From an uncultured Clostridia bacterium (GTDB taxonomy: Bacteria > Bacillota > Clostridia > Oscillospirales > Acutalibacteraceae): a stretch of 33,167 nt of DNA. The DNA is taken from assembly GCA_946407465.1 (NCBI GenBank), contig CAMJOD010000010.1, positions 1-33,167 of the forward strand, in the 5' to 3' direction. This document shows positions 23,920 through 31,656 of the stretch, piece by piece; positions within the stretch are counted from its first letter, which is position 1; the number at the start of each line of letters is the position of its first letter. The translations under genes and the position numbers were made by a program. Below the pieces are notes generated by a model that was not told the origin of the DNA, did no database searches, and worked only from the letters and a program-made list of their open reading frames with translations.

Positions 23920-23947
23920 TTGACTGTATTTTAAAACGTGCTATAAT
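23920..23947 (+). promoter_or_regulatory. Promoter of the PqqD-like / peptidase / NTase trio
   Basis: TTGACT (23920-23925) - 16 bp - TATAAT (23942-23947). Confidence 0.7.
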
Positions 23948-24028: not shown

Positions 24029-24289
24029 ATGAAGCTCAACGAGAATTTTTTGACACAGGAAATCGACGATACACAGGTTATGGTTGCCACAGGCGACACG
24101 GCGTTCAGCGGCATTGTCCGCAGCAATCAGACCGCTGCGGAAATTGTCAATTTGATGAAGGAAGAAACCACCCGTGACGAGGTGGTGGACAAGATGTGCG
24201 CCAAGTATGACGCTTCGCGCGAGGAAATCGCCGCTGACGTGGACATGGTTATCGCAACCCTGCGCAAGGTCGGCGCACTGGACGAATGA
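24029..24289 (+). CDS. PqqD family peptide-binding (RRE-like) protein
   Basis: 86 aa; MKLNENFLTQEIDDTQVMVATGDTAFSGIVRSNQTAAEIVNLMKEETTRDEVVDKMCAKYDASREEIAADVDMVIATLRKVGAL, PqqD-like pattern. Confidence 0.85.
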   Translation: MKLNENFLTQEIDDTQVMVATGDTAFSGIVRSNQTAAEIVNLMKEETTRDEVVDKMCAKYDASREEIAADVDMVIATLRKVGALDE

Positions 24290-24741
24290 CCGAGCAGCTG
24301 AATTTGGAAACCTTGCTCCGCCGGGACGGCGTGCTGGTCTACAAAACGCGCGGCGTGAGCATGCGTCCCCTGTTTAAGGAGAACCGCGATTTGGTGACCG
24401 TCCGCCCCTGTCAGAGCAGCGGACTGAAAAAGTACGACGTGCCGCTCTACCGCCGCCGCGACGGGCGCTTTACGCTGCACCGCATTATCGACGTGCGAAA
24501 CGGCGTCTATGTGATACGCGGCGACAACACCTTTGTGAAGGAATATGTGCCGGAGAGCCAAATTGTGGGCGTGCTCACCGAATTTCAGCGCAAGGGCAAA
24601 AAGCACACCGTGGAGGATTCCGGCTACCGTGCCTACGCGCGGTTTTGGAACGCCGTTTACCCCGTGCGTCTGGTGCTGCACAAGGTCAGGCGCCTCGGCG
24701 GCAAAATCAAAAGAGCCATAAAGGGTGAACAGAAGCCATGA
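24286..24741 (+). CDS. S24/S26 (signal peptidase I-like) family protein, no obvious TM segment
   Basis: 151 aa; TRGVSMRPLF (S25) and RFTLHRIIDV (H65) match the Ser/His-type S26 core; ATGA overlap with the PqqD-like gene. Confidence 0.8.
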   Translation: MTEQLNLETLLRRDGVLVYKTRGVSMRPLFKENRDLVTVRPCQSSGLKKYDVPLYRRRDGRFTLHRIIDVRNGVYVIRGDNTFVKEYVPESQIVGVLTEFQRKGKKHTVEDSGYRAYARFWNAVYPVRLVLHKVRRLGGKIKRAIKGEQKP

Positions 24742-25877
24742 ACGCAACCGAACAATTTATCTATCTGACCGCCTGTGCCGCCGCCAAGCGGCAGGCGACG
24801 CTGGACACCGCGGACTTTGACAGGCTGTGGCAGATGGCGCAGGGTCACAACCTGACCGCGCTGGTCGCCAAGGCGCTGCAGGGCACCGAGGCGTTTCGCG
24901 CCGCCGACGCGCAGGAGCAAAAGCGCTGGAGCAGCGTGCTCGACAACAACATCAAAAAAACCATGCTGTTTGAAGCGGAGCGGCGCGCAATTGAGCGCTA
25001 CTTCGAGCAAAACGGCATTTGGTACATGCCGCTCAAGGGCGTGATTATCAATCCGCTGTTTCCGCACTACGGCACCAGGGAATTTGCCGACTACGACATT
25101 TTGATGGATCCGTCGCGCATGGCGGACGGCAAGGCGTTTATGTTCAAACGCGGCTACACCTTCCGCACCGACAGCTTTCCTGCCGACGAATACTCCAAGC
25201 CGCCGTTCTACAACATCGAGCTGCACCGCGAGATGATTGACCATTCGCCGCAGTTTGAACTGTTCTACCGGTACTACGCCAACGTGAAGGACCGGCTGAT
25301 CAAGGACAAGGGCAACGGCTTTGGCTATCATTTTTCGGACGACGATTTTTATATCTTCTTTATCGTCCACGCCTTTAAGCACTACGACAACCGCGGCACG
25401 GGCTTTCGCACCGTCGCGGACGAATATGTGCTGCTGCACACGGACAAGCTGCACTTTGATTTCTCCGCTGTCACGCGCGAGTTGGAAAAGCTGGGCATCG
25501 CCGATTTTGAGTACAAGCTGCGCACGCTTGCCGACGCGGTGTTTGAAAATCCGGAGCAGACGGCGGACAACCTTCGCGCGCTCTCGCCCGAGCTGCGCGA
25601 AATGCTGCAATTCGTCCTGTCCTGCGGCACCTTCGGCAGCATGGAGAACCTCTTTTCAAAGGAATTTGAGGAGAGCGCCGGCAGCAGCCACTCAAAGGCA
25701 AGATATTTTTTGAAGCGCGTGTTCCCCGAAAGAAAGCGCTTTAAGTATTCCAATCCCTTTGTGTACAAGCACAAGGCGGTCTATCCGTTCTTTTTGATGT
25801 ACCGCATGGCGGTGCGTCCCATCAAGAACCGCCGCGAGCTCCGCAAGGAGTTAAAAACCATCAAGCATATCAAGTAG
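24738..25877 (+). CDS. Nucleotidyltransferase family protein (NTP_transf_5-like)
   Basis: 379 aa; WYMPLKGVIINPLFPHYGTREFADYDILMDP (DxD-type metal site), NIELHREM; ATGA overlap with the preceding gene. Confidence 0.8.
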   Translation: MNATEQFIYLTACAAAKRQATLDTADFDRLWQMAQGHNLTALVAKALQGTEAFRAADAQEQKRWSSVLDNNIKKTMLFEAERRAIERYFEQNGIWYMPLKGVIINPLFPHYGTREFADYDILMDPSRMADGKAFMFKRGYTFRTDSFPADEYSKPPFYNIELHREMIDHSPQFELFYRYYANVKDRLIKDKGNGFGYHFSDDDFYIFFIVHAFKHYDNRGTGFRTVADEYVLLHTDKLHFDFSAVTRELEKLGIADFEYKLRTLADAVFENPEQTADNLRALSPELREMLQFVLSCGTFGSMENLFSKEFEESAGSSHSKARYFLKRVFPERKRFKYSNPFVYKHKAVYPFFLMYRMAVRPIKNRRELRKELKTIKHIK

Positions 25878-25966: not shown

Positions 25967-26815
25967 ATGGAAAAAGAAATTGTTACAACAACCAAACAGG
26001 ATCCGGCTGCGCGCGAGGTTGAGGTCAACATCGCTCCCCTGCTGTCCGCCATTGTCAAAAAGCTCTGGCTGATCATTCTGGGAGCGGTCATCGGAGGACT
26101 GCTGTTCCAAGGGGCTGTACGCGTCTTTGTCAAACCCAACTATCTGTCCTCCTTCACCGCCTTTGTCAACAACCAGACACAGAATAACGGTCAAAAAAGC
26201 GCGGTGTCGCAGGCGGATATTCAGGCGTCGCGTGAGCTGGTTGCCACCTATTCGCGTATTCTCACCAGCAACAACGTGCTGGTCGCCTCGGCTGAATTTA
26301 TCAACCTGGACATGAGCTACGATCAGCTCTCCCGCTGCGTCAGCACCCAAGTCGTTGACAACACGCAGGTTATCCGTGTGAATGTCATCACCACCAACGC
26401 CATCCTCTCCTACCGGCTGGCGCAGGCAATCGCCAACACCGCTCCCACCTATATGTCGCAGATTGTAGAGGGCAGCTCGATGAAAATCGTCGACGCACCG
26501 CGCGCGCCAAAGGGCAAATACGGCCCCAACTACGCCATGTCCTCCGTGCTGGGCGCGCTGGTCGGCGCCGTGATCGCGCTGATTTATATCCTCGTGAAGT
26601 ATTTCAAGGATGACTCCATCAAGAGCGAGGGCGATTTGGAGGGCAGATACGGCATGCCCGTTATCGGCGTGATTCCGAACCTGAACGAAACCAGGGGCTT
26701 GGGCTACTACCAAAACGATTATTACAGCGATTATTACGTGAAATCCGAAGAAATGAAAAAGCAGCAAAAGAAAGATAAAAAGAACCGGAAGAAGGGAGAC
26801 ATCGACAATGTTTAA
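25967..26815 (+). CDS. Wzz/CpsC-like polysaccharide co-polymerase (chain-length regulator, YveK family)
   Basis: 282 aa; two TM segments flanking an extracytoplasmic domain, NIAPLLSAIVKKLWLIILGAVIGG; precedes CpsD. Confidence 0.88.
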   Translation: MEKEIVTTTKQDPAAREVEVNIAPLLSAIVKKLWLIILGAVIGGLLFQGAVRVFVKPNYLSSFTAFVNNQTQNNGQKSAVSQADIQASRELVATYSRILTSNNVLVASAEFINLDMSYDQLSRCVSTQVVDNTQVIRVNVITTNAILSYRLAQAIANTAPTYMSQIVEGSSMKIVDAPRAPKGKYGPNYAMSSVLGALVGAVIALIYILVKYFKDDSIKSEGDLEGRYGMPVIGVIPNLNETRGLGYYQNDYYSDYYVKSEEMKKQQKKDKKNRKKGDIDNV

Positions 26816-27527
26816 GAAGAAAAAAGCCAAAAACAAGGTGTTCAATCCCTCCAAAATGCTGCTCGGAGAAAACGCCTCCTTTTCCATGCAGGAGTCCTTC
26901 AAGACCCTGCGCACCAACGTCTCCTTTTCGCTGCCCGGCAAAAAGAACCGCTGCATCGGCATTGTCAGCGCCAACCGCGGCGAGGGCAAAAGCACGGTCT
27001 CGGTCAACCTTGCCATTTCGCTGGCGCAGATTGACAAAAAGGTCGTTATCGTGGACTGCGACATGCGTATCCCGACCGTTGCCGCCAAGCTCGGCATGGA
27101 GAACTATCCCGGTCTGAGCGACTATCTCGCCGACGAGGAGGGCTACAGCCATCTTCCCATCGCGCACAACGACACCTTTAACATCGACGTGATTCCGGCA
27201 GGCACCATTCCGCCCGACCCGACCAAGCTGATTGAGTCGCCGCAGATGAGCGAGCTGATTGAAGCGCTCAAGCTTGTCTATGACTATATCGTTGTGGACT
27301 TTCCGCCTGTTACCGTTGTTTCGGACTCGGCGATTCTGTCCTCCGTTATCGACGGCTATCTGATTGTGACGCTGCACGGCTCCACCGAGGTTTCTCAGAT
27401 GGACGAAACCATCCGTCAGCTCAACTTTGCCAACGCCAACGTGCTCGGCTTTGTCTACAACAGCAAGCCCGCGTCGCGCAAATCCTACAAGAAAAATTCG
27501 AAATACTACTATTACGAATACCGCTAA
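26808..27527 (+). CDS. CpsD/CapB-family tyrosine-protein kinase
   Basis: 239 aa; IVSANRGEGKSTVSVNLA (Walker A), VVIVDCDMRIPT (Walker A'), C-terminal KYYYYEYR tyrosine cluster. Confidence 0.92.
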   Translation: MFKKKKAKNKVFNPSKMLLGENASFSMQESFKTLRTNVSFSLPGKKNRCIGIVSANRGEGKSTVSVNLAISLAQIDKKVVIVDCDMRIPTVAAKLGMENYPGLSDYLADEEGYSHLPIAHNDTFNIDVIPAGTIPPDPTKLIESPQMSELIEALKLVYDYIVVDFPPVTVVSDSAILSSVIDGYLIVTLHGSTEVSQMDETIRQLNFANANVLGFVYNSKPASRKSYKKNSKYYYYEYR

Positions 27528-27550
27528 TCCCGCAAAAGGAAAGATGATTT

Positions 27551-28354
27551 ATGGAATACAGCGTACTGATGTCGGTCTATGCCAAGGATCAGCCTGACTA
27601 CCTGCGCACTGCCATCGACAGTATGCTCTGCCAGACCGTGCCGCCGGCGCAGTTTGTGCTGGTGTGCGACGGTCCGCTTACGCCGGCGCTGGACGAGGTC
27701 ATCAACGGCTACGGCGAGCGCCTGGAGGTTTTGCGTCTTCCCGTCAACAAGGGACCGGGCTTTGCGCGCAACCATGCGCTGTCCCACTGCCGCTGCGAGC
27801 TGGTCGCCGGCATGGACAGCGATGACATCAGCCTGCCCGACCGCTGTGAAAAACAGCTTGCCGCGTTTGAGCGCGACAGCGAATTGGCAGTGGTGAGCGG
27901 CGCGATTGAAGAATTTAACGAGAATCCGGACGAGCCGTTCGCGGTTCGCAGGGTTCCCCTGACCCATGAGGAGATTCTGCAATACAGCAAAAAGCGGATT
28001 CCCTTCAATAATGTTACCGCTATGTTCAAAAAAGCCGCCGTCGAAGCCGCCGGCGGCTACAATGCTACGCTGCGGCTTTTTGAGGATTATGATTTGTGGA
28101 TCCGCACCCTGAAAACCGGCGTCAAAACCGCCAACCTGCCCGATGTGCTGGTCAAGGTGCGCAGCACACCGGCACAGCTCAGGCGCCGCGGCGGCAGGGT
28201 TTATGCCAAAAGCATGCTGCGCTTTCGCAGGCAGCTGCTGAAAACCGGCTGGATTTCGCGCCGTGATTATGTGCTGAGCGCTTATCCGCATTTTATTGTC
28301 TGCATGAGCCCAAACGGCGTGCGCCGCTTGGTGTATAAAATAATCAGAAAGTGA
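27551..28354 (+). CDS. Glycosyltransferase family 2
   Basis: 267 aa; YSVLMSVYAKDQPDYLRTAIDSMLCQT, AGMDSDDIS, GTA fold. Confidence 0.9.
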   Translation: MEYSVLMSVYAKDQPDYLRTAIDSMLCQTVPPAQFVLVCDGPLTPALDEVINGYGERLEVLRLPVNKGPGFARNHALSHCRCELVAGMDSDDISLPDRCEKQLAAFERDSELAVVSGAIEEFNENPDEPFAVRRVPLTHEEILQYSKKRIPFNNVTAMFKKAAVEAAGGYNATLRLFEDYDLWIRTLKTGVKTANLPDVLVKVRSTPAQLRRRGGRVYAKSMLRFRRQLLKTGWISRRDYVLSAYPHFIVCMSPNGVRRLVYKIIRK

Positions 28355-28363
28355 GGACGCCCG

Positions 28364-29437
28364 ATGGTCGTTCTGCATATTTGCCCGTTGAGCGACGATT
28401 TGTGCAACGGCGTTCACAACGCGGTGCCTTGTCACGTAAAGGCGCAGAGAGCCTATGCGGATGCGGCGCTGTGGAATTTGGGGCAGCCGCTTGTAATCGA
28501 CGGACTCGAGCAATGCTTTTCCGCCGATTCGTTCAGCGCACTCCCTGCACCCTACCGGCAACCGGATTTGGTTGTCTTTCATGAAATCTATATTCCGCGC
28601 TATCTTGCACTTTCCAAGGAGCTGCGCAGACGGCGGATTCCCTATGTGATTGTGCCGCACGGCGCACTGAAAAAAGGCGCCCAGCAAAAGAGCCGTCTCA
28701 AAAAAGCCGCGGCGAATCTGCTGCTGTTCAAGCGGTTTTGCAACGGAGCCGCCGGTATTCAATGCCTGACCGAGATAGAGCGGCAGGAGAGCGTCATGGG
28801 TAAAAACCTGTTTGTGGCGCCCAACGGCGTGGACATGCCTGCAAAGACAAAGACCGCGTTCCGGACGGACGAAACACACTTTGTCTATATCGGACGGATT
28901 TTGCCGTTCATCAAGGGGCTTGACCTCATGATACAGGCGTTTGCGCTGGAAAAGGATTTTCTGCGCCAACACGGCTGCCGTCTGGATATTTACGGTCCCA
29001 CAGAGGACAGAGGCGTATCGTTTATTCCCGAAATGCAGAGCTACATCAGCCAAGGCGGTGTGGAGGAGCTTGTCAGCCTGCATCCGGCGGTTGTCCGTGA
29101 GGAAAAGCGCCGCGTGCTGCTCGACGCCGACGTCTTTATCCAAACCTCGCGCACCGAGGGCATGCCGATGGGGATTCTGGAAGCGCTGAGCTACGGACTG
29201 CCCTGTCTTGTCACCGAGGGCACGACCTTTGCGCAGACCATCAAAGGCAGCGGCGCCGGATGGAACGGCGGCACAAGCGCGAAAACCATTGCCGAGGCGC
29301 TTTGTCTGGCAGTGAACAGCCGCTCCCGTTTCGGCGAAATGTCCGCAAACGCCGTGCGCATGGCAGAGGCTTACAGCTGGAACAGCGCAGCCGCCACTGC
29401 CATAGGACACTATCGAGAATGTATAAAGGAGCGATAA
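28364..29437 (+). CDS. Glycosyltransferase family 4 (GT-B)
   Basis: 357 aa; FVYIGRILPFIKGLDLMIQAF, RTEGMPMGILEALSYGLPCLVTEGT. Confidence 0.9.
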   Translation: MVVLHICPLSDDLCNGVHNAVPCHVKAQRAYADAALWNLGQPLVIDGLEQCFSADSFSALPAPYRQPDLVVFHEIYIPRYLALSKELRRRRIPYVIVPHGALKKGAQQKSRLKKAAANLLLFKRFCNGAAGIQCLTEIERQESVMGKNLFVAPNGVDMPAKTKTAFRTDETHFVYIGRILPFIKGLDLMIQAFALEKDFLRQHGCRLDIYGPTEDRGVSFIPEMQSYISQGGVEELVSLHPAVVREEKRRVLLDADVFIQTSRTEGMPMGILEALSYGLPCLVTEGTTFAQTIKGSGAGWNGGTSAKTIAEALCLAVNSRSRFGEMSANAVRMAEAYSWNSAAATAIGHYRECIKER

Positions 29438-29441
29438 CGAC

Positions 29442-30830
29442 TTGATTTTTAAATTCAACAAGGACAATCTGGCAAACGCGCTGCTGTTCGTTTTTCTGTC
29501 GCTCGTTTTTGTGGCAAAGGTGCTGGACGTCAACTTTCTGCTCTATCCTGCCATTATTGCGATAGCAGCCGCCCTCTGCATGGGCAACAACAGCTTTCGC
29601 GTCGGCGCCTGCCTGCTGTTGGTTCCGAATATCCGTCTGCTCGACAGCCTGAACATCAGCTTCGGCATCAACCTGCTGATTGCGCTGCCGGTGTTTATCT
29701 ATCTGTTTGAAAGGCGCCGGGTCAATTTTACCGCCGCCATGCACGTGGTTATTATCGAAGTCTGGGATTTGGCGCACTCCGTCTGTTTCGGTCAGTACAA
29801 CCAAATCCTGCCCAACCTGAGCACCGCCCTCGTTCTGTACTATGTGGAGTGTGTGCTGACAGAAAAAAACATCAAAATCAACTACGCCGACATTACCCGA
29901 AAGTTCTGCTTCGGCTGCATCTATTCCGGCGTGCTCTACATGATTCATATCGCGCTCTACGAATCGCTTCCGCTCGTCGATTATATCTCGCTCTGGCGTC
30001 TGTACGGCTACGCCGGCGACCCCAACTATTTTTCGCTGTATTTGTGCGTGGGCGTTGCCATGCTGTTTATTATCAAAGAAAAGCACAAAATACGCGACTA
30101 TTTTTACATACTCATTATGATTGGCATCACGCTGCTGACCGCCTCCAAAATGTCGCTGGTCACCATGCTGCTGATTCTTCTCTACTTTGGCGTCTATTCT
30201 CTCTACAGCTTTTTGGCGAACAAAAACCGCTTTGCGCAGAGAATCGTGCTGATTGGCGCCGTTATCGGCGTGGTTTTCAGCAACCGCATCGCGGATATTA
30301 TCAAGTCAACGGTGATTCGTCTGCGCGAAAAAAACGGCAGCACGCTTGATATTGACACCATCACCTCCAACCGTTTCATGATACAAAACTATTATTTTGC
30401 CGAAATGCTGGCAAATCCCATGGTGTTGCTGTTCGGGTACGGTCTGCAATACAACGAAACCGACTATTTCAGACGCTTCTTTCACATGGCGCACAACACC
30501 TACATGGACATTGTTTTGTCGTGGGGTATTCCCGGACTTATCATCATGTTCGCCATATTTTTCAGTATTCTGAGAAAAATGCGCAAAATCCGCACGGAGC
30601 GCCTGACGCTGAACCACTTCCTGCCGCTTGCGGTTGTCGGCCTCACCTTTATGGCGCTGAGCTGTCTGAGCGCCACCATGTTCTGGTGGATGGTCTGTGC
30701 CGTGCTGCTGCCGCTGAAAGGACTGAAAAATGAATCCGCTTATCTCCTGCGTAGTTCCCGTTTACAACGCACAAAAATACATTTCCGATTCCGTAACGTC
30801 CATAACGGCGCAAACGTATCCAAGGCTTGA
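29442..30830 (+). CDS. O-antigen ligase/polymerase (Wzy-like) membrane protein
   Basis: 462 aa polytopic; LYGYAGDPNYFSLYLCVGVAMLF, MAHNTYMDIVLSWGIPGLI; last ~33 codons overlap the next gene out of frame. Confidence 0.82.
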   Translation: MIFKFNKDNLANALLFVFLSLVFVAKVLDVNFLLYPAIIAIAAALCMGNNSFRVGACLLLVPNIRLLDSLNISFGINLLIALPVFIYLFERRRVNFTAAMHVVIIEVWDLAHSVCFGQYNQILPNLSTALVLYYVECVLTEKNIKINYADITRKFCFGCIYSGVLYMIHIALYESLPLVDYISLWRLYGYAGDPNYFSLYLCVGVAMLFIIKEKHKIRDYFYILIMIGITLLTASKMSLVTMLLILLYFGVYSLYSFLANKNRFAQRIVLIGAVIGVVFSNRIADIIKSTVIRLREKNGSTLDIDTITSNRFMIQNYYFAEMLANPMVLLFGYGLQYNETDYFRRFFHMAHNTYMDIVLSWGIPGLIIMFAIFFSILRKMRKIRTERLTLNHFLPLAVVGLTFMALSCLSATMFWWMVCAVLLPLKGLKNESAYLLRSSRLQRTKIHFRFRNVHNGANVSKA

Positions 30831-31656
30831 GATCATCTTGGTAGACGACGGCTCCACCGACAACTCGCCTGCCATTTGTGACGCCTTTGCCGCCCAGTAT
30901 GACAATATCCGCGTCATCCATCAGGAAAACATGGGTCTTTCCGGCGCACGCAACGCCGGTATGAACGTCGCAAGAGGCGAACTGATCACCTTTGTGGACA
31001 GCGACGACAGCATTCATCCTGAGATGCTGGAGCGCTTGTTCCGTCTGATGGAGGAAACCGGTGCGGACATCTCTTCCGCAGGCACCGATACAGGAAAACA
31101 CGTCGGCGGCATGATGACGCCGGAGCAGGCGATCACCTGTCTGCTCAAGGAAAACACCACCTTCAACACCTCAGCTTGGGGCAAACTCTATAAGACAACG
31201 CTGTTTGACGGCATTCGCTTCCCGGAGGGACTGGTGTTTGAGGATTACGCCGTCATTCCGCAGGTGATACACCGCGCCGACCGCATCGCCCACACGGACG
31301 AAGCACTTTACCGCTATCGCACGGACAACCGCGAGAGCATCACCAAGGCGCCGTTCAATCCTGCGCATATGCAGTTTTTTACTGTTTCCGAACTTGTTAT
31401 AAAATTTCTCGAAGAGAATTATCCTCAACTTCGCCGCTATGCAAGGCTGCGGCAAACCAGCTTTGCCGTCTCGTTTTTCAGACGCTGTGCGCAGTCCGGC
31501 GCTGCCGGCACAAGCGAAGAACGCCGCTTGACCCGATACGTGCGCGAGGGACTGTTCCCCTATCTGTTCAGCGCCTACAAGCTGACGGCAAAGGCATACG
31601 GCATGCTGATCGCCGTCTGTCCGCCCTTGGCGCGCAAGCTGTTTGCGCCGCGATAA
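30730..31656 (+). CDS. Glycosyltransferase family 2
   Basis: 308 aa; PLISCVVPVYNAQKYISDSVTSITAQTYPRLEIILVDDGSTDNSPAICD, FVDSDDSIHPEM. Confidence 0.93.
   Translation: MNPLISCVVPVYNAQKYISDSVTSITAQTYPRLEIILVDDGSTDNSPAICDAFAAQYDNIRVIHQENMGLSGARNAGMNVARGELITFVDSDDSIHPEMLERLFRLMEETGADISSAGTDTGKHVGGMMTPEQAITCLLKENTTFNTSAWGKLYKTTLFDGIRFPEGLVFEDYAVIPQVIHRADRIAHTDEALYRYRTDNRESITKAPFNPAHMQFFTVSELVIKFLEENYPQLRRYARLRQTSFAVSFFRRCAQSGAAGTSEERRLTRYVREGLFPYLFSAYKLTAKAYGMLIAVCPPLARKLFAPR

Follow-up and report, generated by a model that had tools for sequence, protein, structure and literature searches.

Linear polyphosphorylated peptides (LPPs) are RiPPs of Bacillota that were described in May 2026 from the lppAKBSDN genes of Paenibacillus alginolyticus (Popov et al. 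2026; PMC13381572). Their clusters, which often lie in capsule loci, comprise a precursor (LppA), a kinase (LppK), an RRE protein (LppB), a SipW-like peptidase (LppS), an exporter (LppD), and an NTP transferase (LppN). For the Paenibacillus system, YxxP-dependent binding by the RRE, RRE-dependent cleavage by the SipW-like peptidase, and polyphosphorylation of Ser3 by the kinase have been shown, and no visible effect of an lppN deletion was seen in the published host (PMC13381572). Kinases and nucleotidyltransferases (NTases) also occur in rumen lasso peptide clusters (PMC7533575), and in one lasso cluster the enzyme PsmN attaches hexoses to phosphorylated Ser, either directly or following nucleotidylation (PMC9266682). 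Here, we compare with these systems a gene trio from an uncultured Clostridia bacterium, which is quite probably one portion of a split, LPP-like RiPP pathway acting on dispersed precursors.

The window, meaning the whole stretch of 33,167 nucleotides (nt) that was analyzed, is one contig (C10) of a 2.06-Mb genome in 194 contigs. In the genome collection, it comes closest to assemblies of the RUG series from uncultured Clostridiales and Ruminococcus, which we take to be rumen genomes; a literature search on this system in Ruminococcus returned nothing specific. Positions 24029 to 25877 hold three intact open reading frames (ORFs) of 86, 151, and 379 amino acids (aa) on the forward strand, joined by ATGA stop-start overlaps at 24286 to 24289 (first and second genes) and 24738 to 24741 (second and third genes). 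A first-pass annotation of this DNA had placed all three behind one promoter, and a consensus scan returns a candidate on the same strand, the promoter-like site TTGACT-16-TATAAT with an extended -10 at 23920 to 23947 (11/12 matches). Further along that strand, at 25967 to 31656, Pfam identifies an exopolysaccharide (EPS) locus encoding Wzz, a tyrosine-kinase-type ATPase, glycosyltransferases, and Wzy. Each gene of the trio also kept the family that had been read from its sequence (an RRE-like PqqD protein, an S26-type protein with Ser25 and His65, and a DxD nucleotidyltransferase), as the comparisons below describe.

The first gene (24029 to 24289) encodes a PqqD-type protein (PF05402, E=7e-15), the equivalent of LppB. 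A PqqD profile built from 59 homologues retrieves TbiB1 (1e-12) and TfuB1 (2e-8), both lasso RREs of solved structure, and it also matches the 2026 structures PbaB1 (4e-6) and LppB (7e-6). The model of the window protein (pLDDT 79) can be superposed on TbiB1, taken from the structure with its leader, at a TM score of about 0.8, so that the RRE fold, on which the first-pass annotation had staked its reading, is present in prediction. In the crystal structure, the leader is touched by LppB residues N33, Y60, and D70 (PMC13381572); at the aligned positions the window protein also has N33, Y60, and D70, which are conserved in 54/59, 54/59, and 48/59 homologues, respectively. In the model, the protein is an RRE that most resembles the lasso B1 proteins, and the discrete RRE of lasso B1/LppB type that characterizes LPP systems is present in the window. 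Assignment to the PqqD of PQQ biosynthesis was rejected, with a TIGR03859 score of 26 bits against the PqqD equivalog cut-off of 46.

An RRE closest to lasso B1 proteins, together with the kinases and NTases of rumen lasso clusters (PMC7533575), would also suit a trio left over from a lasso peptide cluster that had lost its B2 peptidase and cyclase. The likening of the trio to kinase- and NTase-bearing lasso clusters was indeed apt, but the B2 cysteine leader peptidase family (PF13471) has no match in the genome, on which ground we rejected this origin, and the conserved set includes the S26 gene, which ordinary lasso clusters lack. We consider such a remnant extremely improbable.

The second gene (24286 to 24741) encodes the putative peptidase. 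In Pfam it scores weakly (PF00717, E=0.022), and its AlphaFold model (pLDDT 91) has SpsB as its best PDB match, followed by weaker matches to SipA, SEC11A, and LexA-type folds. Ser25 is found in 43 of 44 homologues, the remaining row being truncated at its N-terminal end, and all 44 carry His65, Asp80, and Glu86. No transmembrane segment was found in the protein, whose best 19-residue hydropathy is 0.42, in keeping with the earlier description of it as soluble. In an alignment with SEC11C, Glu86 falls where SEC11 has an Asp, which we take to be its catalytic Asp. By its predicted structure the protein is a SipW/SEC11-type peptidase, the LppS equivalent and a kind for which a leader-peptidase role has been shown in LPP RiPPs (PMC13381572); by that analogy, the leader-cleaving module that had been suggested here appears sound. 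A SipW/archaeal-type signal-peptidase-like leader peptidase beside the RRE, another feature of LPP systems, is present as judged by gene order, fold, and Ser/His conservation. At three loci (L145:4905-7172, L149:4057-6987, and L150:6903-9194), the S26 domain lies inside much longer proteins of 755 to 976 aa.

The third gene (24738 to 25877) encodes an NTP_transf_5 enzyme (PF14907, E=3e-40) equivalent to LppN, with a DxD motif (D118 and D120) that is invariant in 24/24 homologues, so that the NTP transferase of the LPP set is present in the window as well. The window contains neither an HprK-like kinase nor an MsbA-like exporter. Elsewhere in this genome, an HprK-like kinase is found as a fragment at the end of a contig (C97), and no clear LppD orthologue appears among 35 ABC matches, the best being 29% identical. 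Both are at home in the sets of relatives, the kinase lying 5' of the PqqD gene in many of them.

The arrangement of the trio extends well beyond this strain, which was the other point on which its reading had been made to depend. Across 59 relatives, in gene calls made with a simple purpose-written script, the S26 gene lies immediately 3' of the PqqD gene in 57/86 cases; the NTase gene follows immediately 3' of 17 PqqD-S26 pairs and about 1.8 kb further along in eight. In the loci read, this gap of about 1.8 kb between the S26 and NTase genes contains an MsbA-type ABC exporter. Four loci (L028, L029, L151, and L152) carry an S26-NTase fusion. With PqqD-S26-NTase seen again in many species, and with S26 and NTase joined into one protein in some of them, the arrangement is far from chance. 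In distant families (L140 to L143), the full operon runs from a secreted protein and a short peptide through the kinase, PqqD, S26, and exporter to the NTase. Short ORFs and HPr-kinase-like genes, both of which had been proposed as neighbors worth seeking, are thus found in relatives. The trio set recurs across Clostridia, and the window trio is a real, conserved module, part of a recently described kind of system.

A tie to surface polysaccharide, as had been suggested, is borne out in part. An HprK-like kinase belongs to the set: at locus L007, kinase-PqqD-S26-NTase runs into the Wzz operon that also follows the trio in the window, and the start of the EPS gene order behind the trio is shared by L005, L007, and L008. 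The linkage to EPS genes is kept in related species, but the machinery also occurs outside polysaccharide loci; gene linkage, and gene linkage only, suggests that the product of the trio acts on polysaccharide. At six loci of relatives (L023, L024, L025, L049, L050, and L055), PqqD-S26, with or without the NTase, lies directly 3' of groES-groEL and not near a polysaccharide locus.

No precursor peptide had been noticed in the window, and a scan of its 348 short ORFs for leader-type peptides likewise gave 0 matches; the genome as a whole, by contrast, encodes five such peptides in trans. Short ORFs beside PqqD/S26 modules share an N-terminal pattern, and a profile seeded with 17 of these peptides retrieved, from the fetched loci, 47 of 11,075 short ORFs at E<0.02, with a gap to the following match at E=1.6. 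Their consensus reads K..Y..PE(L/I/F)E(I/V)..F..EDVI.TS, followed by a short, mostly acidic tail; the Tyr is present in 46/47, Y/F..P in 26/47, and a Ser at the leader-core boundary is nearly invariant. The peptide of locus L092 is MKKEGYERTDLEIIFFKTEDVITTSDPKDYELERDMG. Among the peptides tested, none was covered by Pfam or NCBIfam apart from one chance match. The five in this genome lie on contigs C34, C22 (two), C17, and C28, of which the C28 peptide and the second C22 peptide are weak (E of 0.008 and 0.014) and lack EDVI.TS; other genomes encode up to 26. A precursor with a YxxP RRE-binding motif is thus present as in LPP systems, but in trans and outside the cluster. These peptides with their Y..PE(L/I)E...F..EDVI.TS leader are likely the substrates of the machine and form a previously unannotated family.

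Radical SAM genes, a third kind of neighbor that had been proposed for the search, were found outside the window trio. At three loci, a leader peptide with a Cys tail adjoins a radical SAM gene whose product is ranthipeptide-maturase-like at sub-cut-off scores, which is consistent with a leader-plus-core organization. Two Cys-tail leader peptides beside radical SAM genes lie in the same genome as the window (L091:1166-2684 on C34 and L093:7659-9348 on C17), and the radical SAM genes there resemble PapB/CefB-type ranthipeptide maturases under the curated cut-offs. Two further loci carry unusual peptides. L156:7747-13192 encodes two peptides in tandem, of 43 and 48 aa, whose leader is divergent (Y/YV.PE/PK...VEER); close by are genes for a radical-SAM-like protein, an HprK-like kinase, S26, an ABC exporter, PqqD, and NTase. 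At L041:7224-7472, an 82-aa Cys-containing peptide (MKKTYEKPMVYFEELSFDTTIADMCS...) with no NCBIfam match is encoded directly 3' of a PqqD gene.

Genomes with the peptidase tend to be those with the peptides. Among the relatives, 42/44 that bear the peptidase have a peptide hit, versus 1/15 of those without it. In a class sample of 293 genomes, the peptide was found in 41/77 peptidase-bearing genomes versus 7/216 others (p=1.3e-21, a value that, like any p-value for this co-occurrence, is too strong because the genomes are related); the exceptions were 36 peptidase-bearing genomes without a peptide hit and seven peptide-bearing genomes without the peptidase. The position of the peptide genes is equally distinctive: 43/47 start within 75 nt 3' of a gene whose product has 400 aa or more or is truncated by a contig end, versus 33/377 other genes, although the loci were picked for holding peptides or modules and these counts are therefore not a random sample. 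Most of the large proteins that precede the peptides have a signal-peptide-like N terminus.

This placement invites another explanation, in which the short peptides are something other than RiPP precursors, such as small regulators or chaperones that serve the secreted protein before them. Nearly always, the spacing between the two genes is -1 to 70 nt, and we did not find such a linkage described in the literature on LPPs. A regulator would hardly account, however, for a YxxP-type RRE-binding motif at the peptide N terminus, for co-occurrence with the peptidase, for direct linkage to kinase-PqqD-S26 in distant families, or for leader variants whose Cys tails adjoin radical SAM genes, and we judge this explanation very unlikely.

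The same genome carries a second PqqD-S26 pair on another contig (C1), which raises the question as to which machine handles the dispersed peptides. The C1 pair may share or take over the substrates. If it processed them all, the window trio could be specialized on another substrate, e.g., a peptide or protein belonging to the neighboring polysaccharide machinery, as its tie to an EPS locus in several species with no peptide gene there would allow. Yet the two PqqD proteins form one family in which the leader-contact residues are largely kept in both, and at L026 two leader peptides adjoin a PqqD-S26-NTase trio. Such a division of labor seems to us rather unlikely. A lone PqqD-type gene with a TTG start lies on a further contig (C2; L012:7410-7670), directly 3' of a helicase-like gene and with neither S26 nor NTase as neighbor; a fourth PqqD match (C16, in a 468-aa frame) was sub-cut-off and left out of the count.

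We return to the reading of the trio as part of an LPP-like pathway. The gene set, its folds and conserved residues, the precursor family, and its co-occurrence and linkage were established by computation; by analogy with Paenibacillus, we infer RRE binding, cleavage, and Ser phosphorylation in this genome. The PqqD-type RRE would bind the short precursors through their Y..PE(L/I) leader motif and present them to the S26 peptidase, which would remove the leader near the EDVI.TS motif, with a cut on either side of the conserved Ser. The nearly invariant Ser at the leader-core boundary is probably phosphorylated by an HprK-like kinase whose gene lies elsewhere, and its phosphate is probably where the NTase attaches a nucleotidyl group or a sugar; for the NTase, we infer its action on a phosphorylated peptide because PsmN adds hexoses to phosphorylated Ser (PMC9266682). 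The precursors would come from small genes that are dispersed through the genome and, in nearly every case, sit immediately 3' of a secreted-protein gene. Their products may be exported and may act at the cell surface. On a wider scale, it is possible, and we propose it tentatively, that one or two LPP-like machines per genome process many precursors in trans across Clostridia, each precursor being paired with its own large secreted protein. Surface proteins would then be produced together with a small partner peptide in phosphorylated or glyco-phosphorylated form, and the same leader would also be read by radical SAM maturases. That the peptides are placed so strictly behind secreted proteins offers a concrete clue to their role, one that is testable in culturable relatives.

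Among described systems, the NCBIfam families SynChlorMet and HPr-rel-A likewise pair a PqqD-type protein with an HprK-like kinase, and membership in either was rejected with all scores far under the curated cut-offs. Lasso clusters of the paeninodin and pseudomycoidin type share the B1-type RRE, the HprK-like kinase, and the NTP_transf_5 enzyme but differ in that the leader peptidase here is of the S26 type, with no B2 peptidase in the genome; a macrolactam cyclase of the asparagine-synthetase type was not noticed among the genes of the operons either. The LPP systems are closest. The window trio corresponds to the B-S-N part of their set, relatives carry the published gene order A-K-B-S-D-N including the HprK-like kinase and MsbA-like exporter, and the YxxP leader motif and linkage with capsular or exopolysaccharide loci are shared. 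The differences lie in the Clostridia host, in a window operon with neither kinase nor exporter, in precursors dispersed in trans 3' of secreted proteins, in Glu86 as the third acid of the peptidase, and in the S26-NTase fusions of relatives. The leader continues with F..EDVI.TS rather than VLxHQxIxFETxxS, and the full LPP consensus YxxPxVLxHQxIxFETxxS is not matched by the peptides here. Because the leader differs beyond YxxP and the exporter was not found in the genome, we class the system as LPP-like, a variant rather than a strict LPP. LPP-type processing, shown so far for the Paenibacillus system, is extended in this way to Clostridia, including rumen species, with an unannotated leader-peptide family supplying the missing precursors. 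The kind of system is known; what is new is its arrangement, with precursors in trans behind secreted proteins.
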